Made by a program: the position numbers and the translations under genes. From a virus, in IMG/VR virus record IMGVR_UViG_3300025128_000418, positions 1-21,216 of that record: a stretch of DNA of 21,216 bases; one strand, given 5' to 3'. The notes beneath the pieces were generated by a model, which was not told where the DNA came from, did not search any database, and saw nothing but the letters and a program-made list of their open reading frames with translations. Every line of letters begins with the position of its first letter. The stretch's first letter is position 1. Below are positions 7,733 through 21,167 of the stretch, in pieces.

Positions 7733-8541
7733 TAGACGCGCTCAGACATATTGTAAATCTCAAGGCAATGAGACTCATTGTGTCTAAAAATATCCTCCCC
7801 ATCCTGACTTATTGAGGAAAACCCTGAGACCTGTGTGATGGCCCAAATGCCCCGGGCAAAGGTCACTCTGTCCTTGTGCAATTGCTCAATGCTTTTGATC
7901 CCTGTTACCGCCGCTGCACCATCCTGTGGTAAAAAGGCATCATCATCAGTTGCCCTGGGTGGCGATTCGTTGTCAATCCATCCTACCAATTTTTGAGGCT
8001 TGCAGATTTCCTGCATGATGTGACCCGGTTTATTCATCTGTTGGGGTGTTGCCCCCCAAGGGTTGGGAAATCTAAACCTCTCTTTCTTTGGCAATAAATC
8101 CCTTTTGCGTTCATCAACGTAATTGTAAGTGACCAGGGGTGATAGATAGCTGTATTTTCCCCGCTTATAGGGTCCCGGGTTTGGCTGCAAGTAGACCTCC
8201 TTGATTTCAGCAGACCACTCAGCAGTAAATTGTCCAGAGTCTCCCTTATAGTCTCCTGATGCATCAACTGAGCTCTCAATGCCCTCAAATCGCAAGGTTG
8301 TCTCACCTCTGACCCCATCCAGGTCCTGCACCACTGGTGCAGCAATAAGGGTCAGATTTTTTCTGATCCCTGCCTTGATTATGGGTGTGCCTTTTGGCCA
8401 ATCTTTAATGAATTTCTCTGCCCCGTCAAGACGTCCGGCATAGACCAACTCATGAAAACTGACCCCATCCTCAGTGGCCCCCTGAGACCCCCCGGGGTTG
8501 CGTTGCCAGGTGGCATCTCCTATGTAATGTGGCGCACTCAT
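7732..8541 (-). CDS. Probable distal tail/tip protein
   Basis: A 269-residue protein placed directly after the tape measure, where distal tail (Dit-like) proteins usually sit. It starts MSAPHYIGDATWQRNPGG and includes VSFHELVYAGRLDGAEKF, a beta-rich middle (LTLIAAPVVQDLDGVRGETTLRFEG) and an aromatic region (GKYSYLSPLVTYNYV). No enzyme motif is visible. Its start overlaps the tape-measure stop by 4 nt (ATGA), and its own stop overlaps the next start by one base, so the three genes are a coupled block. The Dit-like role is inferred from order only. Confidence 0.5.
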   Translation of the reverse strand: MSAPHYIGDATWQRNPGGSQGATEDGVSFHELVYAGRLDGAEKFIKDWPKGTPIIKAGIRKNLTLIAAPVVQDLDGVRGETTLRFEGIESSVDASGDYKGDSGQFTAEWSAEIKEVYLQPNPGPYKRGKYSYLSPLVTYNYVDERKRDLLPKKERFRFPNPWGATPQQMNKPGHIMQEICKPQKLVGWIDNESPPRATDDDAFLPQDGAAAVTGIKSIEQLHKDRVTFARGIWAITQVSGFSSISQDGEDIFRHNESHCLEIYNMSERV

Positions 8542-9638
8542 ACCATTGCTGCGATTTGCTCAATATTGAATTGAGTCTTTTTATTCAGGGCCTTGATCAC
8601 ATCAAGGGTTGTTGTTTGCTTTACTAGTTCCTTTTGGACCGGGTTGACCTTGCTGACCGTCCCTTGCATACCCAGTAAAGCCAGAGGGTCCTTTGCCCCT
8701 CCTCCAAATTTTCTTAAATTCTGCACCCGCTGATCTCTCTCTTTTGCTTTTTCCTCCTCTAGCTTGAGTTTCTTTTTTTCAAGGTCTGCCGCTGCCTTTG
8801 CTGCTGCCGGGTCCTTTGGCCGGATGCTGGGATCAAATGCGCCCATTGCTGCACCGGCAGAAAACTTTGCCTTGGTTAACCAGGATTTATCTCCCCGGGC
8901 CTTTCCTAACAACATTCCTATGCTCTCTAAAGCCCTGTTCTTTAAATTTAACCGGGCATTGTCTGCGTCACGTTTTGCCTTTTCTCCTGATGCCTGCGTC
9001 CTGACTTGCACCTGACCCATCTGCGCTGCCAGTCTCTCCGGTCCTAGTTCACCCAATGCCGTCAGGACCGTTGTGGATAGCGTATCACCAAGGATGGGAC
9101 CAAGGGCAGCAAGTCCCTTGTCCCTGCCACCGGGTAACTCCTGCAATGCTTTGGAGAGCGCAAGCACTCGCTCCAGGGGTTTGAGTTTCTCAAATTTCTC
9201 CCATGAGATCCGCAGGTTGGCAAATGCGTCTTGCTTGCCGGTATCGCCTTGTGCTGCCTCACCAATGGAGCGGGAAAGCTCAAAGACAATCTCTGCCGTC
9301 TCATCTGCCTCAATCTTGAATTGCTCCAGAACAAAGGCAAGGGCCTGGAAATTCTCAAAGCCCATGTCTGCTTTTTTACTCAGCAGCAACTTATCCCGGG
9401 TTGCGGTGGTTTCCTTGCCAATGGCAGCAACGGCAATGGCTGCAACGCTTGCCGCCTTTTTAAGCATACCCAGGGCTTTTTTCATCTTGCCGATACCTGC
9501 TGCCCCTTTCTTGCCGGCATCCTCCCACGCTTTGCCAGTTTTCTTAGCGTCTTTGATGTTACGAGCAACAACAGGCTTGAACCTCTTGTCATCCCCCGTG
9601 AAATCTGTGCGTAGCTCAACTCCTACCTTTGTGGCCAT
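8538..9638 (-). CDS. Tail tape measure protein
   Basis: A 366-residue helical protein. A basic start is followed by a GKKGAAGIGKMKKALGMLKKAASVAAIAVAAIG stretch, with a hydrophobic segment at about 62-73, typical of tape measures. A long region of charged helices follows, with a strong coiled coil near 277-310 (AAADLEKKKLKLEEEKAKERDQRV). At the usual scale of about 0.15 nm per residue, such a protein would set a tail of roughly 50 nm, much shorter than lambda's. It follows the chaperone block and precedes the tip genes, as expected. The start overlaps the previous stop by one base (TAATG). It is the only plausible tape measure in the window, although a second one outside cannot be excluded. 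Confidence 0.65.
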   Translation of the reverse strand: MATKVGVELRTDFTGDDKRFKPVVARNIKDAKKTGKAWEDAGKKGAAGIGKMKKALGMLKKAASVAAIAVAAIGKETTATRDKLLLSKKADMGFENFQALAFVLEQFKIEADETAEIVFELSRSIGEAAQGDTGKQDAFANLRISWEKFEKLKPLERVLALSKALQELPGGRDKGLAALGPILGDTLSTTVLTALGELGPERLAAQMGQVQVRTQASGEKAKRDADNARLNLKNRALESIGMLLGKARGDKSWLTKAKFSAGAAMGAFDPSIRPKDPAAAKAAADLEKKKLKLEEEKAKERDQRVQNLRKFGGGAKDPLALLGMQGTVSKVNPVQKELVKQTTTLDVIKALNKKTQFNIEQIAAMV

Positions 9639-10429
9639 TACTTTCTACCCTTTCCCTTGGCTTTTGATTTTGCTTTCTCTAGGTCTTTTTCCATTCGCTC
9701 AACAGCAAAATTGAGCATCCCTTTGTCACCATAGAGTGCCTTTTTCATTGCCTGCACCATTACCTTGCGCCCCACCTCATAAGACCCTCTTACTCGGTTT
9801 ATTGAGTGCGCTTTGATGTTGTTGGTTGCCCTGGTCCCTTTTGATCTGGCAGCAGTTCCCCCGGGAGATGGTTGCGCGTCCTTGGGTCCTTTGCTCTTTA
9901 GTCCCAAACGTCTTGCCGATTGTAGAAACCCGGCAGCAATTGCGCCACGTCTTGACCTGCTGCGGTTGCGTATCGTTGCAGCCGCCTTGGTCAGTGGTCG
10001 GTTCCCCTCAACCCCTTTGACCTTTTTGCCCACCTTGACAGGCTTGGTCCCTGGTGAGACCACGATGGTTGATTGCCTCTTGCCTTTCCTTGCCCCTCTT
10101 TTTGATGCCAACCGGAAAAAATAAGCTCTCTTGGCATTGGCAGCAGATTGCTTGCCTGTCAGTTTTCTAGTCTTGCCGGTCTTGGATTTGCTCTGCTTTT
10201 TCCACTTTGCGGGATCATAAGCAGCAGAAAGGATGCCCTTATTAATCTTTGCCCTTGGTGCGCCCCCACGATTCTCAGACATGGCTGCATGAAAGTTGGC
10301 TTGTTGACCTGCCTTGGTCACAACCTCGTTGTGCGTCTTATTGCGGGCCTGACCATACAGCACCAGCACCTCATTGTAATAAGGAACATCAGTTATGCAC
10401 TGAATGATGTCATCTTTAGTGTTAGCCAT
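9638..10429 (-). CDS. Very basic protein of unknown function before the tape measure
   Basis: The chosen start ATG lies one base after the stop of the HAD gene, giving 263 residues (MANTKDDIIQCIT...). An upstream in-frame ATG at 10483 would overlap the HAD gene by 53 nt and add a Gly-rich leader, so I rejected it. The middle is extremely Lys/Arg-rich with Gly, Ser and Ala (for example KKQSKSKTGKTRKLTGKQ and RNRSRSRRGAIAAG), like a nucleic-acid-binding or disordered assembly segment. The C-terminal 60 residues (RVRGSYEVGRKVMVQAMKKAL...) look helical. I do not recognise a family. It may cap or chaperone the tape measure, or bind DNA at the head-tail interface. Confidence 0.5.
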   Translation of the reverse strand: MANTKDDIIQCITDVPYYNEVLVLYGQARNKTHNEVVTKAGQQANFHAAMSENRGGAPRAKINKGILSAAYDPAKWKKQSKSKTGKTRKLTGKQSAANAKRAYFFRLASKRGARKGKRQSTIVVSPGTKPVKVGKKVKGVEGNRPLTKAAATIRNRSRSRRGAIAAGFLQSARRLGLKSKGPKDAQPSPGGTAARSKGTRATNNIKAHSINRVRGSYEVGRKVMVQAMKKALYGDKGMLNFAVERMEKDLEKAKSKAKGKGRK

Positions 10430-10430
10430 C

Positions 10431-10757
10431 TTAAAGGGGAGGGATGCTTTTGGTGTATTTAGTCCACCCCCACCCCATATCATCCACGATTATCCCGGGC
10501 TTAGATAGGCAGGCATTGACCACACCCGTCAACTTGCACTGCTCAACTGCCTCCTCTGCTGCCTCCTCACCTCGCATGGACCAGACGTTGATGTCATAGC
10601 CATCAATTGCTTTTAAGATGATCCACCTGACCAGGGCAGAGTTGACCCGGTTGTTGATGAATAGGGTGTTATCAACATCCACATAGATCACCTTTGGTCT
10701 GGGCATCTTGCCATTGATCTTTTTAACCCTGTTAAACATACCCGGCAATTTCGTCAA
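10431..10757 (-). CDS. Small HAD-superfamily phosphatase-like protein
   Basis: A 108-residue protein if the TTG start at 10757 is used. That start has AGGAGG at 10767-10772 with a 9-nt spacer. An ATG at 10739 (102 residues) has no such site but overlaps the frameshift stop by 8 nt. With the TTG start, HAD motif I is VDVDNTL (D27 and D29), motif II is the Ser of VWSMRG (S60), motif III is the Lys of LSKPG (K86) and motif IV is IIVDDMGWG (D92, D93). All catalytic positions are therefore present in a minimal core with almost no cap. HAD enzymes remove phosphate via an aspartyl intermediate. The substrate cannot be deduced. Finding it between tail chaperone and tape measure is unusual. Confidence 0.65.
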   Translation of the reverse strand: MTKLPGMFNRVKKINGKMPRPKVIYVDVDNTLFINNRVNSALVRWIILKAIDGYDINVWSMRGEEAAEEAVEQCKLTGVVNACLSKPGIIVDDMGWGWTKYTKSIPPL

Positions 10758-11345
10758 AGCTTGCGCCCTCCTCCAGGTCAGGGCCTAGGAACTTGTTGCC
10801 AATCTCAAAGAGTCTCAGGCTCATGATCTGCAATCCCTGTGCGTAGGGCAACTCATAGATGATCTCATGCGGGGTCAATCCTGTTGCTCTGTGGATGTGG
10901 TAAATATACCCGGCATCTGTGCTGACTTTTTTGGGGCATCTGTTGCCCCGTCCTCCCCATCAGCCTTGATGTCATTTGATGAGGCATTGCGGTCAATAAA
11001 GATCTGGTTGGCAATCTCAATGGCATCACCCACCTCTGGCCCCTGCACATCAAACCCATTGATAAAGTCATCAACCTCCTCAATCACAACAGTTGGGTCC
11101 TTGCGCAAATCCCGCCGGCATTGCTTGAGATCATCAGCATCCATCCTGCCAACCCAAACCACTGCCAGTGCATCCTGCTCAATCTCAAAGTCTGCCTTGC
11201 GAATAATGGACAACCACAACCAGTTATGTCCACGGGACCATTTGACCGGTTGCCCCTGCCAGGAGTAGGTTTCTGATCTCTCATATGCTAGGTTTGCAGC
11301 CTCCTCTGCTGCCTCATCAATCTCAATTACTGCTGGTTGGCTCAT
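10732..11345 (-). CDS. Tail assembly chaperone long form made by -1 frameshift (GT-like)
   Basis: Ribosomes shifting back one base at A AAA AAG (10926-10932) would leave the short chaperone frame after residue 140 and add 64 residues, ending at the TAA at 10732-10734, for about 204 in total. The extension contains HRATGLTPHEIIYELPYAQ and LRLFEIGNKFLG. These resemble the T part of lambda gpGT-type chaperones, which bring tape measure and tail tube protein together. The extension has no good start of its own and would otherwise be an unexplained 140-nt gap between 10875 and 10732. Location between the major tail protein and the tape measure is exactly where such frameshifts occur. Confidence 0.75.
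10767..10772 (-). promoter_or_regulatory. Shine-Dalgarno AGGAGG deciding a TTG start of the HAD gene
   Basis: AGGAGG in the gene sense, 9 nt before TTG at 10757, inside the LEEG codons of the chaperone extension. No comparable site precedes the ATG at 10739. Confidence 0.5.
10875..11345 (-). CDS. Tail assembly chaperone short form (G-like)
   Basis: This 156-residue acidic, helical protein is read without frameshift. The start is good: TAGGA lies 6 nt before the ATG, which overlaps the previous stop (ATGA). The body contains WLWLSIIRKADFEIEQDALAVVWVG and DDFINGFDVQGPEVGDAIEIANQIF, ending with a linker rich in Asp, Gly, Ala and Lys where the slippery site lies. After that site the zero frame adds only 16 residues and stops at TGA. 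By analogy with lambda gpG it should coat the tape measure during tail assembly and be absent from the virion. Sequence similarity to gpG itself is not obvious; the call rests on order, size and the frameshift architecture. Confidence 0.7.
   Translation of the reverse strand: MSQPAVIEIDEAAEEAANLAYERSETYSWQGQPVKWSRGHNWLWLSIIRKADFEIEQDALAVVWVGRMDADDLKQCRRDLRKDPTVVIEEVDDFINGFDVQGPEVGDAIEIANQIFIDRNASSNDIKADGEDGATDAPKKSAQMPGIFTTSTEQQD
10926..10932 (-). promoter_or_regulatory. Slippery heptamer A AAA AAG for -1 frameshifting
   Basis: In the gene sense the zero-frame codons are GCC CCA AAA AAG, so A AAA AAG fits the X XXY YYZ rule, and C CCA AAA just before it also fits. AAA AAG is among the most efficient bacterial slip sites. 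The -1 frame is open for 64 codons beyond it; the zero frame stops after 16. Confidence 0.8.
10933..10949 (-). other. Hairpin immediately 5' of the slippery site
   Basis: In the gene sense GGGGCA-ACAGA-TGCCCC is a perfect 6-bp stem with a 5-nt loop that ends at the base before the A-run. It would be unwound by the ribosome as it reaches the slip site, so it could refold behind the ribosome. Whether it affects frameshifting is unknown. Downstream only a weak GGTA/TACC stem is seen. Confidence 0.4.
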
Positions 11346-11893
11346 TCTATTCCTATTCTTTTGGCAAAGTCCCGGGCATTGCGGTTTACGTTGTATTTGC
11401 GCCCGGACCGGGCAACACCTGTGATGTGTTCCGGGCTTGTGTTTATGATCCTCATGCAGTCCCGCCTTGCCTCCATAAATGCCCGCCCATAGGCAGCATA
11501 GGCCAAGGGCAGCACATTATTGATCTGTGCCTTTAGTTCCTTGTTGTCAATTTGCTCAACCAGGTCATCAAGTTTGGCGACAGGTTCCCCACTCTTGGAC
11601 TGGTATGCCTGCCTGATTGCATTTGTTGGCAGGGGTGTTGGGTTGCCGGTTGCGCCTTGAGGTTGGTGTTGCCAGGTGCTTGACGCACCATTCATGCAAA
11701 AGACCACCTCGGGTCTGCCATTATTGTAGGGGTTGGTCTTGGAATATTCCCGCCGCACCTCTGCGCCCGGGACCAACTCGACCCCTAGAGCGCGACAAAC
11801 AGCAACCTCCTCAGTCTGCTTGGTCTCACTAAACCCTCCCGCCAACTCAGACGGGACCATAATTCCACTCTGCGGTGGCTTATTACTTGCCAT
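11342..11893 (-). CDS. Protein of unknown function between tail tube and chaperone genes
   Basis: A 183-residue protein (MASNKPPQSGIMVPSELAGGF...). The N-terminal half includes a beta-like stretch (RPEVVFCMNGASSTWQHQPQG). The C-terminal half is helical and basic (LKAQINNVLPLAYAAYGRAFMEARRDCMRIINTS). No motif is recognised. Its stop overlaps the chaperone start (ATGA), so it is coupled to the chaperone, and it is separated from the major tail protein by a 51-nt gap with a GC-rich hairpin. The order suggests a tail assembly or minor tail role that is needed in smaller amounts than the tube protein. Confidence 0.5.
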   Translation of the reverse strand: MASNKPPQSGIMVPSELAGGFSETKQTEEVAVCRALGVELVPGAEVRREYSKTNPYNNGRPEVVFCMNGASSTWQHQPQGATGNPTPLPTNAIRQAYQSKSGEPVAKLDDLVEQIDNKELKAQINNVLPLAYAAYGRAFMEARRDCMRIINTSPEHITGVARSGRKYNVNRNARDFAKRIGIE

Positions 11894-11944: not shown

Positions 11945-12370
11945 TTAAGCTATATTAAAGCCGATGGGGCGCTCGAAAGTCATATCAACCGTCCTTGCAC
12001 CACCTTGTGGTTGTGATCCAGAAACTGAGGCAAGGCGTGTTTCGGCAGCAGCAAAGTCAAGGCCGTTGTAAGTGGACCCGGTAGCTGCAAAAAAGTCAGC
12101 ATTGGTGACAGAGGCCGCGGCAGTGAATGTCAACACATTGAGTCCACCGTCTTTATCAGTCACTGTGCATCCGCTTAAGCTCAGAACAATGGCGGCATCA
12201 TGATTGACGGCATAGCCTATGCGCCCAGAATATCGGTCCCTGAACTCAACTGCATCATTTTGCAGATCATACGAGAGATCCCCTAAGAGGACACCCGACT
12301 CATCTGACTCTGCTCCAATGGTGACATCTGTGTCGTTGATCCCGACCCCTACGTAGCTTGGTGTTGCCAT
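11945..12370 (-). CDS. Major tail (tube) protein
   Basis: A 141-residue beta-rich protein lying after the tail-completion gene and before the chaperone genes, the expected place of the tail tube protein. Alternating strands such as AAIVLSLSGCTVTDKDG, NVLTFTAAASVT and GARTVDMTFERP suit the tube sandwich fold. SCRATCH-like enzyme motifs are absent. The ATG follows TTTAAA by 2 nt and a GATAGGG element by 29 nt, and the gene ends before a GC-rich hairpin, so it looks like its own expression unit within the operon. Small size fits the shortest known tube proteins. I am fairly sure of the role by position, less so by sequence. Confidence 0.6.
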   Translation of the reverse strand: MATPSYVGVGINDTDVTIGAESDESGVLLGDLSYDLQNDAVEFRDRYSGRIGYAVNHDAAIVLSLSGCTVTDKDGGLNVLTFTAAASVTNADFFAATGSTYNGLDFAAAETRLASVSGSQPQGGARTVDMTFERPIGFNIA

Positions 12371-13459: not shown

Positions 13460-14770
13460 TTACTGCGCTCCAGAGTCAGTAGACTTGGCGAAAGACTCAG
13501 CATGGCGCAACCCAATGTCATGGAATGAATTGGTTGTTACACTGATCTGGCCTGATCCAGCAAGACTGATGTTGTCCACGGTCACGCGGCGTGATCCCCA
13601 ACTTGCAACCACCAACTCCGACCATGCCCCAAACAGGACCTGGTTGGCAACGGTGAGAGCTTGGTTGAACATTACAACCGGCAGACCCATTGTGGAGAAA
13701 CCACCACCTGGTGCCTCTTTGATGACAAACTGACCACTGCCAGCATCAGCAGCAGCAGCTAAACCAGCAGCAATTGATGCACTGGATGTCACAAAGGCAA
13801 GGTTCTCTTGCGGTGCGTTTTCAGCCATAACGGCAGCCCACATGTTGACATAATCAGCATATGTAGGTGCGCCACCAAAAGTGACAGATGCATCAATCCC
13901 GGATGTGGCAGACACACCAATTGGTGCATCCCCTGTGCCTGGACCATCAAGAGCAGCAAGATCCAACGCAAGTGCCTCGCGCTTGATCAGGTCATCCCTG
14001 ACAATGTTCTCAACGCTCAAGCTGGACTGATTGACCAACTGATCTGAGTAGATTGTCTTAACGCTCAAGCGCTTGGGAGTCAGTGCCAATTGACCAAAGG
14101 TCTGAGCAGATGCAGTAATTGCAGCCTCCTCATCAATCCAGTCAGCAGTTGCCCCACCAGTCATTTTAGGCAGATTCACATTGCCACGCAGACCGGTCAG
14201 TCTGGTTGCACCAAGTGCAGTTGTGACAAGTTGTGCATCAAGTTTATCAATGAGACCACCAACATCAGTGGCGACCGTGTAGCCACCCTCTGAGTCAGTG
14301 CCTACCTCAAGGTCTGCTCTTGTCCCAAACTCTGCCGGGATAAAGAACTCATTGCCGCCAAGAGATGTGCCAAGATTTTTGGCAACCTCAACGGCAACCT
14401 CACGCTCAAGACCACTCAGGCCCTGACCACTCTTGATCTCACGTATTGCCTTAACCACGCTGAAAGACCTGCGCTCATTAGCGTCAAGACCAACTGCCTG
14501 ATCCAACCCCTTGGGGTCAATCTCAGCACTTGGTGCCTCCCAGGTGTCAGTGACACTCCTGCGGAATGACTCAAGGTCAGTCCCATTCTCAATTGCACTC
14601 TCAGCCTTTTCATCAAAGCCAAACTTTTTGCCAAGGGATCTGATGCCGGCTTGCCGGTTGATCTCATCCTTGCGCACCTTGTCCTTATCGGACTGACTCG
14701 GGACGTAGACTTGAGGCGCTGCCTCTGCCGTGTTCCGGGTCTCTGTTTCGTTATTTATAGATTCAGACAT
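13460..14770 (-). CDS. Separate scaffold/major capsid product from an internal start
   Basis: An in-frame ATG at codon 202 of the fusion gene (MSESINNETETR...) has AGGAGG at 14779-14784 with an ideal 8-nt spacer, stronger than most gene starts in this window. Its product is 436 residues: a charged, helical delta/scaffold-like segment (about the first 95 residues), then an HK97-fold capsid. In this way the cell could make many capsid subunits from the same gene that makes a few protease-linked ones. Lambda uses a similar nested in-frame start for its scaffold inside the protease gene. The product is predicted, not shown. Confidence 0.65.
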   Translation of the reverse strand: MSESINNETETRNTAEAAPQVYVPSQSDKDKVRKDEINRQAGIRSLGKKFGFDEKAESAIENGTDLESFRRSVTDTWEAPSAEIDPKGLDQAVGLDANERRSFSVVKAIREIKSGQGLSGLEREVAVEVAKNLGTSLGGNEFFIPAEFGTRADLEVGTDSEGGYTVATDVGGLIDKLDAQLVTTALGATRLTGLRGNVNLPKMTGGATADWIDEEAAITASAQTFGQLALTPKRLSVKTIYSDQLVNQSSLSVENIVRDDLIKREALALDLAALDGPGTGDAPIGVSATSGIDASVTFGGAPTYADYVNMWAAVMAENAPQENLAFVTSSASIAAGLAAAADAGSGQFVIKEAPGGGFSTMGLPVVMFNQALTVANQVLFGAWSELVVASWGSRRVTVDNISLAGSGQISVTTNSFHDIGLRHAESFAKSTDSGAQ

Positions 14771-15373
14771 TTTATTGCCCTCCTGTTTAAAATTAGATTT
14801 TAGTTGTGCGGCGTTTTCGGTATGGACTAGGCGCACCACGTTGTCACCTGAGTCCCCGGCTCGACCTACCCCAACAGTTGTGTCCATTGGAATAGAGACA
14901 AGGCTGATCTCAAAAGGTTCCCAATCAGTCACGCGGTAGGAGTTTTCCCCCTCCTTGCTGCGCTCTGCATCAGTTACCTCATGTATCCTGTAACCAAATG
15001 AGACCAGTCGTCTGATCCCATCTTTCACATCTTGAAAAATTTCTTGAGCCTTTGGACCCTTGCCAAACCTGACCACGGCATGACCTCTCTTGTCATCACC
15101 AATGGTTGCCATGTCCACCACCCCAATTTGCTCATCCGGGTCATGGTTCCAGAGCAAAGGCGCACCGTTGTTGATGCGTTCCATCCTGGCTGCACCTCTG
15201 CTGTGGTCCAGTATCTCAAGGCCCTGCATCCTCTGCCCGGGTTCCTCTGAGCTAAAGGACAACGCAACACTCCGGTCCTCATCCTTGATGTCATCCTGTC
15301 GGATCTCAAGTGACCGGTATTGCATGGGCAAGGTCTGCCCATCCTTGAAAAATTCTGGTTTCTCAGTGTCCAT
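13460..15373 (-). CDS. Prohead protease-major capsid fusion protein
   Basis: A 637-residue protein. Residues 15-175 are an HK97-type (U35) prohead protease: catalytic His in LLWNHDPDEQIG (H77) and Ser in WEPFEISLVSIPMD (S157 or S160). A linker with QEGNK precedes M202. A helical scaffold-like region runs to about 300, and then an HK97-fold capsid (ERRSFSVVKAIREI..., GGYTVATDVGGLIDKL, TKRLSV-type core strands). The protease should cleave the delta region during prohead maturation and free the capsid domain. Such fusions are known in phages with lambda-type portals. The ATG follows TTTAAA by 2 nt in a tandem duplication shared with the portal stop. An internal start at 14770 probably gives capsid alone. 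Confidence 0.85.
   Translation of the reverse strand: MDTEKPEFFKDGQTLPMQYRSLEIRQDDIKDEDRSVALSFSSEEPGQRMQGLEILDHSRGAARMERINNGAPLLWNHDPDEQIGVVDMATIGDDKRGHAVVRFGKGPKAQEIFQDVKDGIRRLVSFGYRIHEVTDAERSKEGENSYRVTDWEPFEISLVSIPMDTTVGVGRAGDSGDNVVRLVHTENAAQLKSNFKQEGNKMSESINNETETRNTAEAAPQVYVPSQSDKDKVRKDEINRQAGIRSLGKKFGFDEKAESAIENGTDLESFRRSVTDTWEAPSAEIDPKGLDQAVGLDANERRSFSVVKAIREIKSGQGLSGLEREVAVEVAKNLGTSLGGNEFFIPAEFGTRADLEVGTDSEGGYTVATDVGGLIDKLDAQLVTTALGATRLTGLRGNVNLPKMTGGATADWIDEEAAITASAQTFGQLALTPKRLSVKTIYSDQLVNQSSLSVENIVRDDLIKREALALDLAALDGPGTGDAPIGVSATSGIDASVTFGGAPTYADYVNMWAAVMAENAPQENLAFVTSSASIAAGLAAAADAGSGQFVIKEAPGGGFSTMGLPVVMFNQALTVANQVLFGAWSELVVASWGSRRVTVDNISLAGSGQISVTTNSFHDIGLRHAESFAKSTDSGAQ
14779..14784 (-). 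promoter_or_regulatory. Internal Shine-Dalgarno AGGAGG inside the protease-capsid gene
   Basis: In the gene sense CAGGAGGGCAATAAAATG: a full six-base Shine-Dalgarno sequence, 8 nt before an in-frame ATG, placed precisely at the protease-capsid junction. The surrounding codons (FKQEGNKM) are AT-rich and so probably unstructured. Confidence 0.7.
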
Positions 15374-15411
15374 TATTTAAAGTTTCCCAGTGTCCATTAT
15401 TTAAAGTTTCC
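15364..15411. repeat. Exact 24-bp tandem duplication at the portal stop/protease start
   Basis: Positions 15364-15387 and 15388-15411 are identical. The unit spans the last portal codons, its TAA, a TTTAAA box, the ATG and the first two downstream codons. The outcome is a six-codon mini-ORF (MDTGKL) from ATG at 15397 to a second TAA, between the portal stop and the real protease start. Confidence 0.85.
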
Positions 15412-16924
15412 CATTTTTAACGGTGTTGGATAGGGGGGGATTTTCTGTGGCAATGGTCTCTGCCTTAAATTCCGGCATATCAAGACCCTTGGCCTGCATC
15501 ATCTGCTCATACTCTGCCCACTCATTCAGCACCTCCTCCGGGTCAAGACCCCTCTCAGCCAGCACCCTTTGTGGGCTTGTGAGTTTCATGTCCAGGTCAC
15601 TCTTTTTGCCGGCAGAGTCTTTCTGCGGATCAATCCAATCCCACCGTCTTGCTTGGAAATGTGATGCCCTATACCTTTGCTCCTCCTCAAGTTTCAGACC
15701 TCCAAGTTGGTTGAACATCAATTGTGTGCGCAACCATGCCTCAAAGATTGGGCGCACCCGGCCATTGATTGCCTCATCCTGCTTAGTTTTCCACCCGTCA
15801 CGCTCAGAGAGTGACCCCAACCTGCCTGAGCTATAACTTGTCCCCTCCAGGTCTCCACTCAGACCGGCATAAGATACGCCCAGGGAGGATGCGCAAGATT
15901 GCAGGGTCTGCTTGGCGTGGTCAGGGAGTGCTGTGTTGGGAAACTGCGGTTGCAGGATCTCCCACTTGCGTCCCAGACCTGACTTGAGAGCAAACCCCGG
16001 AGTGATCTGCATCTGATCAGCAAACCTCTCACTCTCCTCATAATCCCACTCATCCGCGTTCTCATCAACCCTCTGGAACACTGCACAACTGGCAAGTCTT
16101 GCGGCAACGTGGTGTGACTCCTCAGTGCGGTCCAGGTGGCGCAGAGACTCGACGCAGGCCACAAGGTCACTGATGCCCCGCTGCTGGTCTGGTCTCCGGG
16201 GTGTAAATTGGTGCAGGATGTAGCCTGACTTGCTGGGGATGCCCGGGACATCCTCAAGGAACTCTGAGAGGGCGGGAACCCTTGAGCGTTTTGCGCCGGC
16301 ATACTGCTTGAACATGCCCCCCGGATGCTCACCGTTAAGCCAATAGGCAACGCACTTATTTTGCGGGGACAGTTCCTTGCCCATCACAATCCTGTTGCCG
16401 TTCTTTAGTTCAAGATTGAGATCATGGCTGAAAAAGTCAGGCTCAAGGGTCCTGATGGCAAACCTGTGCTTGTTGTTAAAGCCGGGATAAACAACAATAA
16501 AGACCTCACCATCAGTGCCTATAGACCTCTCCTGCAATCGGTCAATGTCATTGTGATGCTGGTTGCCACCGGGACTGCAAAGTTGTGGAGCTTTCCACTT
16601 GGCCCACTTTTCCTCGATGATGCGCCTTGCGTAATTATCAGCAACCCTTGCCTTGTCCATTACCCGGGATTGCAACTTAAACCCATCAGGCCCCACCACA
16701 TTGGTCACCCGCAGGTCCAGATACCTCTGGGCATACTTGTTGGTTTCGGCCAGGTCACGGCACATTCGCCGCATGTGACCCAAGTGCTGAGAGATGCGCT
16801 TGTTGCCATCATCATCATTGAGAACCCAGTCAGAGAGTAGCCTTGCGGCAGATAACTCTGAATATCCGCGCTTGCCGCGCTTGCCTTGAAAAATCTTGCC
16901 AATTGCCTTGAGTGGATTTGCCAT
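15401..16924 (-). CDS. Portal protein, lambda gpB family
   Basis: A 507-residue protein that forms the twelve-part ring at the head vertex through which DNA is packaged and to which the tail joins. Family-typical stretches include DLAETNKYAQRYLDLRVTNVVGPDGF near the N-terminus, ARRIIEEKWAKW, DGEVFIVVYPGFN, VPALSEFLEDVPG and, later, LGVSYAGLSGDLEGTSYSSGR, which is highly characteristic. EEVLNEWAEYEQMM near the end matches the C-terminal helix. Length is usual for the family. The ATG abuts the preceding TAA (TAAATG), with TTTAAA 3 nt upstream and no Shine-Dalgarno sequence, so re-initiation is likely. The gene ends in a 24-bp duplication. Confidence 0.9.
   Translation of the reverse strand: MANPLKAIGKIFQGKRGKRGYSELSAARLLSDWVLNDDDGNKRISQHLGHMRRMCRDLAETNKYAQRYLDLRVTNVVGPDGFKLQSRVMDKARVADNYARRIIEEKWAKWKAPQLCSPGGNQHHNDIDRLQERSIGTDGEVFIVVYPGFNNKHRFAIRTLEPDFFSHDLNLELKNGNRIVMGKELSPQNKCVAYWLNGEHPGGMFKQYAGAKRSRVPALSEFLEDVPGIPSKSGYILHQFTPRRPDQQRGISDLVACVESLRHLDRTEESHHVAARLASCAVFQRVDENADEWDYEESERFADQMQITPGFALKSGLGRKWEILQPQFPNTALPDHAKQTLQSCASSLGVSYAGLSGDLEGTSYSSGRLGSLSERDGWKTKQDEAINGRVRPIFEAWLRTQLMFNQLGGLKLEEEQRYRASHFQARRWDWIDPQKDSAGKKSDLDMKLTSPQRVLAERGLDPEEVLNEWAEYEQMMQAKGLDMPEFKAETIATENPPLSNTVKNGKL
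15429..15435 (-). promoter_or_regulatory. GATAGGG copy inside the end of the portal gene (copy 5)
   Basis: GATAGGG followed by more Gs on the plus strand, 55 nt before the protease-capsid ATG. It lies in coding sequence (codons for NPPLSN), so it may be chance, but it precedes the most strongly expressed gene and is in the same orientation as the four intergenic copies. Confidence 0.25.
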
Positions 16925-17529: not shown

Positions 17530-18042
17530 TCACCTGCCGGGGTTCCCTCCTTTGCCTGAGTTTTTCTCCTTTCTCTTAGTTTCCTGCCTTGCCTTTTTAG
17601 CCGCCTGTTGCCTCGCCAACACCCTTTCATGCCTCTGTTGGTTATTAATGGCCCTACCGGCTTGCCCCCAAAGCGGGGGGTCTTTAAGGTTGTTGAGCCT
17701 CTCCCTTTCCATTGACCCCCGGAACAGATCAAACAGGTATCCAGGATCAGGATTGGCTAACCCCAATATTTCTGCACACCTTGCCGCGCCGCCATTTCTC
17801 CAAAAGGCAACCTCTGCCAAGATGTCAGCAGGTCCTGACACCACCCCTGACTGGAACCCCGCAACCTTGCCAAGCTTATTGGGCTTGATGGGTTTTGAGG
17901 TGAGGCGCAAGTCGGGGGTTAGATGCCCCAACCGTTGCGCCGTCTTGATCAGGGTGGCAGATGTGCGCAGCATATCAAGAGCCAGCAACTCATAACCCTC
18001 CAGATCGCTGTCTGCTAAAAATCCTCTGTGGGACAATATCAC
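17530..18042 (-). CDS. Unknown protein coupled to the large terminase
   Basis: A 170-residue protein. I chose GTG at 18042 as start because it overlaps the terminase stop as GTGA, the arrangement used by several neighbours; TTG at 18048 is the alternative. The middle has PADILAEVAFWRNGGAARCAEILGL, a helical segment with a possible helix-turn-helix character. The end is a highly charged, basic, probably disordered tail (RQQAAKKARQETKRKEKNSG). I do not recognise the family. Its position between terminase and gpW-like gene suggests a packaging or head-completion accessory, perhaps DNA-binding. Confidence 0.5.
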   Translation of the reverse strand: MILSHRGFLADSDLEGYELLALDMLRTSATLIKTAQRLGHLTPDLRLTSKPIKPNKLGKVAGFQSGVVSGPADILAEVAFWRNGGAARCAEILGLANPDPGYLFDLFRGSMERERLNNLKDPPLWGQAGRAINNQQRHERVLARQQAAKKARQETKRKEKNSGKGGNPGR

Positions 18043-19934
18043 AACCAACCACCTGCCTGCCGTCCCATCCCGGTCACCGGGGGTTGCGGTCTTGGTTTGG
18101 GTTTGTCCTTGTCACCTCCTCCTGCCAGCCTCTCAACCTCAGAGGCAGCACGTTCCTCAGTCATCTTGTCAGACTTGAAAGCTGCGATTGCATAGGCAAG
18201 GCAGTCAAGTGGCTCATTCCTAGGCGCACCCTCTGGGTGGATAAAATGAGATACAACCCTGCCATCTCTTGCTCGTTTGGTGTCGCGCTCCTCTGCAAGT
18301 AGACCATCAAAGAACTCAGGACCAAACATCTCAACCCCGTCCTCATAGGCATTGGTGAAATGGACACTTGTTGGGGTCTCAACCTCCGGGTCAAGCAGGT
18401 CATAGATTTGATCCTTTAGCTCAGAGACTCCCAGGGTCATGCGCTTTGCCCCTGTGGCGGCATCCACTCTGATCTTGTCCAGTGCAGGCGCACCAATCTG
18501 CGGTGACCCCATGACTGCCATGACCCCCTTGCTCTGGTTTGCTCGGGTCCAGGTTTGGACGGTGTTTTTCTGAAAGCGGGAATCTATAAAGAATTTACGC
18601 ATCTTGAGCATTGCCCCGGATGGGTGCGGCCACCTCCTGCGCAGAAACTTAGTCAGAGCAACCCAAGTCTTTGGAGAGTCCCACCTGCCTTGAATCTCTG
18701 TGTAGTTGATGCCCCAGATGCCTGATGGACCTGTGCCAATGACAATGATTGCAATGAATTTGCCGTTAACATCAGCACCACCCCACAACCTGGTTACCTC
18801 CTCCGGGAGTTGATCAGCCGGGTCATAGTCCTCCCGGTCCGCAAGCAATCCCTCTGGGTCTGCCTTAGTCTCATATTCCTCCTCATAACTCTCAGCCCAG
18901 AGTGTATTAATCAGCACCCTCCTTGCTTTTTTGGGGTTTTCGCTCGCATTGGCAGCATCAGATGAGGCAGCAACCTCAACCAGATAATCCGGGAACTTGT
19001 CAGCATGGTCCCCAACGTGTGCCATGCAGTTGAGGTGATACCCTCTGCGCCCCCCATATTTCTCATCCGGCAGGTCACCTGGCTCAACCCTCTCACCATC
19101 CCGGTTGCGGAAATGCCCGGTTTGCTCACAACTTTCCTTGCGCTCTAAGTCTCCAAAGGTGGCGGCACAACTAGGACACTCAACCTGGGCAAGATGGGAT
19201 TGACCGGCAGGCCAGACAATATGCTTGGGATGCCATGCTTGCGCCTCATTGCACTTGGGGCAGTCAAAGAACCAGACGCACCCATCAGTCTGGTCAAAGG
19301 CTGCATCTATCTTGCTGCCCCCCTTGATGCTTGGATATGAGGCAAGCCAATGGTGCTGCCTCTTGCGTCCCCGGGTCCTGCGCAGAAACGCCGCCAACTT
19401 GTCACCCTCATCAGTTGCCTCTGATGTGATGGCATCAATCTCATCAGCATCAGCAACATCAACCTCCAGGGTCCTGATCCTGCCTGCGCTATTGGCCCCA
19501 ACCCCGGTGATCTCTGCCCCGTTCTCCCATGCCTTGAATAGTGCGTTGTCCTTGATCATTGGCAGTGCTGACACAATCGGTGACTCATTGAGGATGGGCA
19601 TGAGTTTCTTAAAGAACCAATCAGCAGACAGACTCTCTGCCGGGAACATCTTGCCAATTTTTAGCTTGAGTTGCTCAATGGCAAAAGCATAAGCAACGGC
19701 AAAGAGATAGGTCTTGCCTGCGCCGGAATACATCCGCAAGGCAACTGAGGCAATGCGTGGATTCAGTAAGTCTGCTGCCGGTGTGATCTGGTAGGGCCTG
19801 AACACAAAGGGGGTCCCGTCTGCGTTCCTGATGTGAGACTCTGCCCATTGCTCAAACGGCAACCGGGGTTCTGCCCTCAAGCCTCCTTGCCATGCCTCCA
19901 GGAGTTGCTGGGAATATTCTGCCCGGTTGCTCAT
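18039..19934 (-). CDS. Terminase large subunit, GpA family
   Basis: This 631-residue motor cuts phage DNA and pumps it into the prohead. The N-terminal ATPase has a Walker A-like SGAGKT (70-75) and Walker B EVDVADADEID (157-167). A zinc ribbon is formed by CPKC (225-228) and CPSC (253-256), seen in many GpA-type terminases. The C-terminal nuclease starts at LWGGADVNGKF (acidic D388) and continues with FFIDSRF (D451). NEPLDCLAYAIAA near the end is a family hallmark. Length is normal for the family. The ATG overlaps the previous stop (ATGA). GpA-type terminases usually act at cos sites, but no cos sequence can be pointed out in the window. Confidence 0.92.
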   Translation of the reverse strand: MSNRAEYSQQLLEAWQGGLRAEPRLPFEQWAESHIRNADGTPFVFRPYQITPAADLLNPRIASVALRMYSGAGKTYLFAVAYAFAIEQLKLKIGKMFPAESLSADWFFKKLMPILNESPIVSALPMIKDNALFKAWENGAEITGVGANSAGRIRTLEVDVADADEIDAITSEATDEGDKLAAFLRRTRGRKRQHHWLASYPSIKGGSKIDAAFDQTDGCVWFFDCPKCNEAQAWHPKHIVWPAGQSHLAQVECPSCAATFGDLERKESCEQTGHFRNRDGERVEPGDLPDEKYGGRRGYHLNCMAHVGDHADKFPDYLVEVAASSDAANASENPKKARRVLINTLWAESYEEEYETKADPEGLLADREDYDPADQLPEEVTRLWGGADVNGKFIAIIVIGTGPSGIWGINYTEIQGRWDSPKTWVALTKFLRRRWPHPSGAMLKMRKFFIDSRFQKNTVQTWTRANQSKGVMAVMGSPQIGAPALDKIRVDAATGAKRMTLGVSELKDQIYDLLDPEVETPTSVHFTNAYEDGVEMFGPEFFDGLLAEERDTKRARDGRVVSHFIHPEGAPRNEPLDCLAYAIAAFKSDKMTEERAASEVERLAGGGDKDKPKPRPQPPVTGMGRQAGGWL

Positions 19935-20734
19935 CCGTCATAACACCCGCAAGGTGGGTGGTGAGGTTCTAAATCCAAAAGGAGTCTGCCTTGCGCATCA
20001 TCCATATTTACCCAATCCCGCCACAAGTTATTCTCACCACCAAGACCACGGTTTTGCCTCATGGTCTCCTGTGCCTGGTCCTCCATCCTTAAGGCCCTTT
20101 CTAGTAAGTCCGGGTGATAGTCCTTGAGGTTGATGACCTCTGACCTCTTGCTTGCGGGACAGTAAAAACAGGCAGACTTGCCGGGTGAGGTTATGCCGTG
20201 TTTGTTAATTATTGCCAAACAGTCTGCCCTCATCCATTCCCAATCAACCAAGGGGAAAACATGGATTGCCTTGCGCCCCTTTTTATGGTCCTCCTCCTTG
20301 ATAGACAATGCCCGGTGACCCTCTCCTGCATCATACCCAATGCACCTGATGACAGTCTTGACCCCTTGCTCATCCATCCAAGCCTTGAGTCTCTTGGTCT
20401 GAGGCTCAACCTTGTATTTCATTGAGCAGGCTTTTCTGCCAAAGGCCAAAGACGGCAAGGTCTTTTTCCGCAGGCAGTCACCCTCAAGACCCTCAAACTT
20501 GCCTTGATAGAGTTTGTGGACTGTCTCAATGCCAATACCCCACCAGTCCTGGCACCTTTTACTCATTTCCTCAACGTGCTTGTAAGTGTGCGGAAACTCA
20601 CCAGCAGTGTCTGCAAAGGTGATCAATGCAGGCTTTATGCCCCGGTCCCGGAAACCCAGCAACATGGCAGTGCTATTCACCCCCCCCCCATAAGCCACCG
20701 TGATTGGGTGGGTTGTGTTCGCTAAATCAATCAT
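19931..20734 (-). CDS. PAPS-reductase/PP-loop family enzyme
   Basis: A 267-residue member of the adenylylating PP-loop family that includes PAPS reductases and DndC-like proteins. The nucleotide loop is YGGGVNST (15-22). Further marks are TFADTAGEFPHTY, CSMKYKVEP (typical of PAPS reductases), a SACFYC pair and a closing CGCYDG. The several cysteines could hold an iron-sulfur cluster. The start is set by AGGAGG at 20741-20746, 6 nt before the ATG at 20734; the longer form from 20803 lies within the small terminase gene. Phage members of this family often lie next to terminases, but their substrate is unknown; sulfur chemistry on DNA, tRNA or a small molecule are possibilities. The loop is coded by ten consecutive Gs. 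Confidence 0.75.
   Translation of the reverse strand: MIDLANTTHPITVAYGGGVNSTAMLLGFRDRGIKPALITFADTAGEFPHTYKHVEEMSKRCQDWWGIGIETVHKLYQGKFEGLEGDCLRKKTLPSLAFGRKACSMKYKVEPQTKRLKAWMDEQGVKTVIRCIGYDAGEGHRALSIKEEDHKKGRKAIHVFPLVDWEWMRADCLAIINKHGITSPGKSACFYCPASKRSEVINLKDYHPDLLERALRMEDQAQETMRQNRGLGGENNLWRDWVNMDDAQGRLLLDLEPHHPPCGCYDG
20680..20689 (-). repeat. Ten-base G tract inside the PP-loop codons
   Basis: Ten Cs on the plus strand, ten Gs in the gene sense, read as GGG GGG GGG G(TG). They code the three invariant Gly of the nucleotide-binding loop. A one-base slip would destroy the frame at codon 18. It is the longest homopolymer I noticed in the window. Confidence 0.8.
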
Positions 20735-21167
20735 TAGCATCCTCCTCAAGTCCCTCATCCATTGCATCCTTGATCCTCTTGTTGAGCAGGTTCTGAGCAT
20801 CAAGGTCTAGGTCACTGCCCTCAATGATCTCACAAGTGATTGACGCAATCCGGGCTGCAAGGTGTCTGGCCTCTGGCAGTGGTATCCACTCACGCTCTAG
20901 CTTTTTGCGTTGAGCCTCTTTCAGTAAGGCATCCTGGATGTTGCGTTGCTCAATGGCAGTCTGCTGCCCCTTGCGTGAAACCAGTGCGCCAACTGCTTTA
21001 AACAATGGATAAAGCTTGGCCCTGCGCGGCCCGTCCTTGTGATCAATGCCGTCATCAATCATCACGGCAGACACATCCCGGTGGTCTGTCTTGCAGATCC
21101 GGGCAAGGTCTGACAGGTGGATCAGTGTGTGACCCGTTGCTCGTTCTGCGTCTTGCTCTCCCTCCAT
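20727..21167 (-). CDS. Terminase small subunit, Nu1-like
   Basis: A 146-residue protein just upstream of the large terminase unit, as in lambda. Residues of about 16-42 (LIHLSDLARICKTDHRDVSAVMIDDG) look like the winged helix-turn-helix that binds the packaging site. A middle helix rich in K, R, E and Q (AIEQRNIQDALLKEAQRKKLERE) and PLPEARHLAARIASITCEII follow, the usual assembly region of Nu1-type small subunits. The acidic C-terminus (DEGLEEDAND) would contact the large subunit, although the PAPS-like gene is inserted between the two. No Shine-Dalgarno sequence is apparent; the start is the first ATG of the frame. Confidence 0.7.
   Translation of the reverse strand: MEGEQDAERATGHTLIHLSDLARICKTDHRDVSAVMIDDGIDHKDGPRRAKLYPLFKAVGALVSRKGQQTAIEQRNIQDALLKEAQRKKLEREWIPLPEARHLAARIASITCEIIEGSDLDLDAQNLLNKRIKDAMDEGLEEDAND
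20741..20746 (-). promoter_or_regulatory. Shine-Dalgarno AGGAGG of the PAPS-reductase-like gene
   Basis: AGGAGG within the small terminase's last codons, 6 nt before the ATG at 20734. An ATG at 20740 is too close to it to be used. This decides the start and gives an 8-nt overlap with the small terminase gene. Confidence 0.65.

Follow-up and report, generated by a model that had tools for sequence, protein, structure and literature searches.

A predicted −1 frameshift in the tail assembly chaperone gene of a divergent tailed phage lineage

In phage lambda, the tail assembly chaperone exists as a short form, gpG, and a long form, gpGT; both bind the tape measure protein through the part that they share, and gpGT also binds the tail tube protein, through its T domain (PMC5009743). 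The known chaperones of this type have low mutual sequence similarity (PMC5009743), and a match to a curated family is consequently supporting rather than defining evidence for a new member. The tail-chaperone frameshift is itself well known in tailed phages; here we describe it in a little-known, divergent lineage, represented by a virus record from IMG/VR (IMGVR_UViG_3300025128_000418, 21,216 bases; the whole stretch is hereafter called the window). We conclude, with a probability of roughly 0.94, that the minus-strand gene at positions 10875-11345 codes for a gpG/gpGT-type tail assembly chaperone that makes a frameshifted long form. The assignment is supported by a slip site, a −1 frame under purifying selection, T-like homology of the extension and a tape measure gene downstream, and it is from these that we infer the slippage itself.

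As in lambda gpG/gpGT, the locus would specify a short and a long form, and the stop codon of the T part shares a few bases with the start of the next gene. The slip site is A AAA AAG as against G GGA AAG in lambda, the T-like part has 64 amino acids as against about 135 and, unlike in lambda, two genes separate the extension from the tape measure gene. The original prediction placed the chaperone between the major tail protein and the tape measure, which is loosely correct: the order holds, but the genes are not direct neighbours. One gene intervenes upstream (183 amino acids, 11342-11893) and two downstream, a HAD-like gene (10434-10736) and a basic gene of 264 amino acids (9638-10429).

Slip site and conserved −1 frame

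The short form, a gpG-like protein of 156 amino acids (MSQPAVIE...STEQQD*), is encoded by the open reading frame at 10875-11345, which has homologues at the same place in two relatives and lies before the tape measure gene. The heptamer A AAA AAG (10932 down to 10926, minus strand; codons CCA AAA AAG) stands in the zero frame of this gene, in the X XXY YYZ register, 48 nucleotides from the zero-frame stop. After the slip site, the −1 frame reads VSTDAGYIYHIHRATGLTPHEIIYELPYAQGL...IAGYV and then TAA at 10734-10732, giving an extension of 64 codons plus stop (10732-10926, minus strand). The long form would have 204 amino acids, namely residues 1-140 of the short form and 64 from the extension; in the zero frame, the slip site is followed by the 16-residue tail SAQMPGIFTTSTEQQD. 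A 64-codon −1 frame from A AAA AAG and a product of about 204 residues had been predicted, and every number was borne out on re-reading the sequence. Only two overlapping heptamers in the gene, C CCA AAA and A AAA AAG (10935-10926), take the −1 frame beyond the stop; C CCA AAA at 10935 was ruled out as the slip site, being absent from the more distant relative.

The open −1 frame alone is weak evidence, as it is only mildly unusual. Taken over all gene positions in the window, 64 open codons have a probability of 0.026; a first-order Markov model (Markov-1) gives about 0.08. At no other place with an in-frame heptamer in the window's genes does the −1 frame run past the zero-frame stop; here it does so by 140 nucleotides. 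Since a chance of 2.6-8% is not rare, it is conservation and not open length that decides.

Two relatives allow this comparison. The close one (L003) is IMG/VR contig 3300030106_005264, with a short form about 92% identical to that of the window; the distant one (L012) is contig 3300010883_001622, found by a terminase-profile scan, with a terminase 73% identical. The extensions of the window and L003 differ in 20 codons of the −1 frame, 17 differences being silent and three replacing; at the base level, 17 of 21 changes fall on third positions in that frame. By the Nei-Gojobori method, the −1 frame has 0.58 synonymous (dS) and 0.027 nonsynonymous (dN) substitutions per site, a dN/dS of about 0.05; for both other frames dN is larger than dS. 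The −1 frame is thus under purifying selection. Synonymous drift, whose absence from this frame would have spoken against the original prediction, is found here and is lacking in the other frames. The slip site likewise withstood comparison: both relatives that keep the gene have A AAA AAG exactly, and CCAAAAAAGT is an invariant block around the heptamer in the alignment of all three.

In L012, the short form is 43% and the extension 59% identical to those of the window, so the extension is better kept than the chaperone body. A zero-frame TGA directly follows the heptamer in this relative, and this position of the stop indicates that the 16-residue zero-frame tail of the window's short form is dispensable. 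Codons 1-16 of the extension are conserved as protein (dN about 0.27, dS about 2 against L012), and in the window no start codon precedes codon 17; taken together, these observations indicate that the conserved frame begins at the slip site.

T-like extension and the CRP-406 counterpart

The claim that the extension contains a T-domain-like segment gained support from contigs unrelated to the window phage. In a tblastn search of terminase-selected contigs, the window extension alone matched a segment of IMG/VR contig 3300027659_000450 (L033; 41% over 29 residues, E-value 0.007). This segment is itself a −1 extension: it starts from an in-frame G GGA AAG, and the gene concerned lies near a tape measure gene. 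When the window and its two relatives were combined into a profile, hhalign matched it to the L033 extension with an E-value of 1.3e-5 over 36 columns, the aligned core being AGYIYHIHRATGLTPHEIIYELPYAQGLQ / ASMVYTLARDTGWAEHFILWTLPMARALQ. Both carry the T-like core A..VY.....TG......I...LP.A..LQ, and in both a gene of similar size, about 272 amino acids in L033, stands between the extension and the tape measure gene. Unlike the window, L033 has G GGA AAG as its slip heptamer, and no similarity of its short form was found. A model built from the four extensions weakly matched a second unrelated contig (L022; E-value 0.05), where the heptamer is an in-frame A AAA AAA and the extension ends directly before the tape measure gene.

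A further counterpart occurs in Roseobacter phage CRP-406 (PV211008.1), whose gene plan that of the window parallels and whose gpA-type terminase is 26% identical. In this phage, A AAA AAC lies before the stop of the unnamed gene CRP406_31, which precedes the tape measure gene; the annotation ends at the zero-frame stop, and the −1 frame (heptamer and extension at 9522-9690) fills the unannotated gap up to the tape measure gene. CRP-406 thus shares with the window a slip site near the zero-frame stop and a −1 frame running towards the tape measure gene, and with L012 a stop directly behind the heptamer. We consider this a probable unannotated −1 frameshift. The CRP-406 fusion matches phrog_344 and phrog_25875, both tail assembly chaperones, and phrog_337, a tail protein, with body and extension both covered, which supports the position-based assignment of the window gene.

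By analogy with lambda, most ribosomes would end at the zero-frame stop and release the 156-residue short form, while on A AAA AAG a minority would shift back by one base, as tRNA-Lys moves from pairing with AAA/AAG to pairing with AAA/AAA, and would produce the 204-residue long form with its putatively helical T-like domain. Coating of the tape measure protein would fall to the shared part, and recruitment of the tail tube subunit to the rare T domain; the tube would then polymerise to the length of the ruler, and both chaperone forms would leave before the virion is complete. We transfer this lambda-type function to the window on the grounds of position, architecture and T-like homology.

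The locus extends a widespread recoding event to a divergent lineage that current profile libraries do not detect. It also shows that the sequence, together with comparative codon evidence, can be enough to find a short overlapping −1 frame, and that conservation can be higher in a T-like domain than in the chaperone body carrying it. The practical use is in annotation: CRP-406 has such an arrangement too, likewise unannotated.

Alternative explanations and contrary observations

The extension could be a separate T-like gene with its own start, reached by re-initiation or coupling and not fused to the chaperone by frameshifting. Possible starts do exist: L012 has GTG at extension codon 1, and codon 17 is TTG in the window and L003 and ATG in L012. 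However, the window contains no ATG, GTG or TTG from the upstream −1 stop to codon 17, yet codons 1-16 are conserved as protein, and any start codon that is conserved lies downstream of the point where the conserved part begins. The exact heptamer in all three sequences, placed where the conserved −1 frame begins, also speaks for a fusion, and we regard a separate gene as very unlikely.

RNA polymerase slippage, which would yield mRNAs with altered numbers of A and a long form translated from edited transcripts, has a slimmer chance still. The site does consist of six A's, and the analogous site in L022 of seven, but transcriptional slippage usually needs longer runs. Moreover, the site retains its X XXY YYZ register, and the G GGA AAG sites of L033 and lambda have no long homopolymer. 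Homopolymer indels are also a known type of sequencing error, and an error or a one-base deletion might have split a single gene of 204 codons; this we consider almost negligible, as the number of A's is the same in three contigs from separate records and the dual-frame architecture persists at 43-59% identity with the zero-frame stop at different places.

Several observations weigh against a frameshifted gpG/gpGT-type chaperone. A profile search against tail chaperone families had been proposed as a check, and the fusion, the short form and the extension of the window had no match in Pfam, PHROGs or NCBIfam. The original prediction named gpG/gpGT of lambda as the counterpart, which is right as an analogue, but the window fusion has no detectable sequence similarity to lambda gpGT (hhalign E-value 0.21 over 14 columns). 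Nor is similarity detectable to the CRP-406 fusion, the chaperone sequences being, unlike the genome plans, not alignable. AlphaFold2 models were weak, with predicted local distance difference test scores of 65 and 55; fold searches from them gave nothing significant, the models being too weak for this to carry meaning. The model of the extension is all-helical at low confidence and was not used as evidence. A stem-loop downstream of the slip site was neither significant (z −1.5 to +0.4) nor conserved in the window and its relatives. Finally, the family found has three members only: the window, L003 and L012. Scans of IMG/VR with the portal, the major tail protein and the extension returned just the same close relative, or the close and the distant one; a scan of genome contigs with the T alignment gave no relative, and tblastn searches of 50,697 phage records gave nothing with any of four queries, namely the fusion, the extension, the tape measure protein and the extension of L033. 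One further candidate from the IMG/VR scan (L006) was rejected as a chance match within an unrelated repeat-rich gene.

Possible stimulators and neighbouring genes

Directly upstream of the slip site lie a purine-rich Shine-Dalgarno-like stretch and GGGGC...GCCCC (10933-10959, minus strand), both of which are possible stimulators of frameshifting. The Shine-Dalgarno-like stretch is 12-18 nucleotides upstream of the slip site, and its duplex with the anti-Shine-Dalgarno sequence has an energy of −11.2 kcal/mol in the window and of −12.5 and −10.7 kcal/mol in the relatives. The short GGGGC/GCCCC hairpin beside the slip site occurs in the window and L003 only.

The next gene after the extension (10434-10736, minus strand) resembles HAD phosphatases: it has a DVDNT motif, and entries of PHROGs and NCBIfam match it weakly. 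In the window as in both relatives, the ATG of this gene and the TAA of the extension overlap as ATGNNTAA, and translation of the gene may for this reason be coupled to the frameshifted product. That it is translated mainly by the few frameshifted ribosomes seems doubtful; if true, one slip site would set the dose of both the long chaperone and the enzyme. The gene lies within the tail operon and has counterparts at 3610-3915 in L003 and 12262-12534 in L012; the motifs are DVDNT/DVDDT/DVDET and KPGIIVDD. A second gene on this side of the chaperone, ahead of the tape measure gene, is Lys/Arg-rich and basic, codes for 264 amino acids (9638-10429, minus strand) and has no family match; the gene of about 272 amino acids in L033 (9368-10186) is similar to it in size and place. 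On the other side of the chaperone, the 183-amino-acid gene (11342-11893, minus strand), which separates it from the putative major tail protein gene, is 92% and 63% conserved in the two relatives and has no family match.

The tape measure protein (366 amino acids; 8538-9638, minus strand) was assigned by a match to phrog_9483 (tape measure, E-value 6.7e-8). The probable major tail (tube) protein (141 amino acids; 11945-12370, minus strand) was assigned by position only, in comparison with the CRP-406 gene order; profile libraries gave no match for it, and hhalign against the CRP-406 tube protein was negative. The window further codes for a fusion of prohead protease and major capsid protein (13460-15373), a lambda-type portal (15401-16924) and the large subunit of a gpA-type terminase (18039-19934), directly upstream of which lies a gene with a PAPS-reductase domain (19931-20803, minus strand; Pfam E-value 6.4e-6). 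A stretch of 21 bases is 95% common to the 5' end of the chaperone gene and the HAD-like gene (11299-11319 and 10549-10569, minus strand), probably by chance from Ala/Glu-rich coding.
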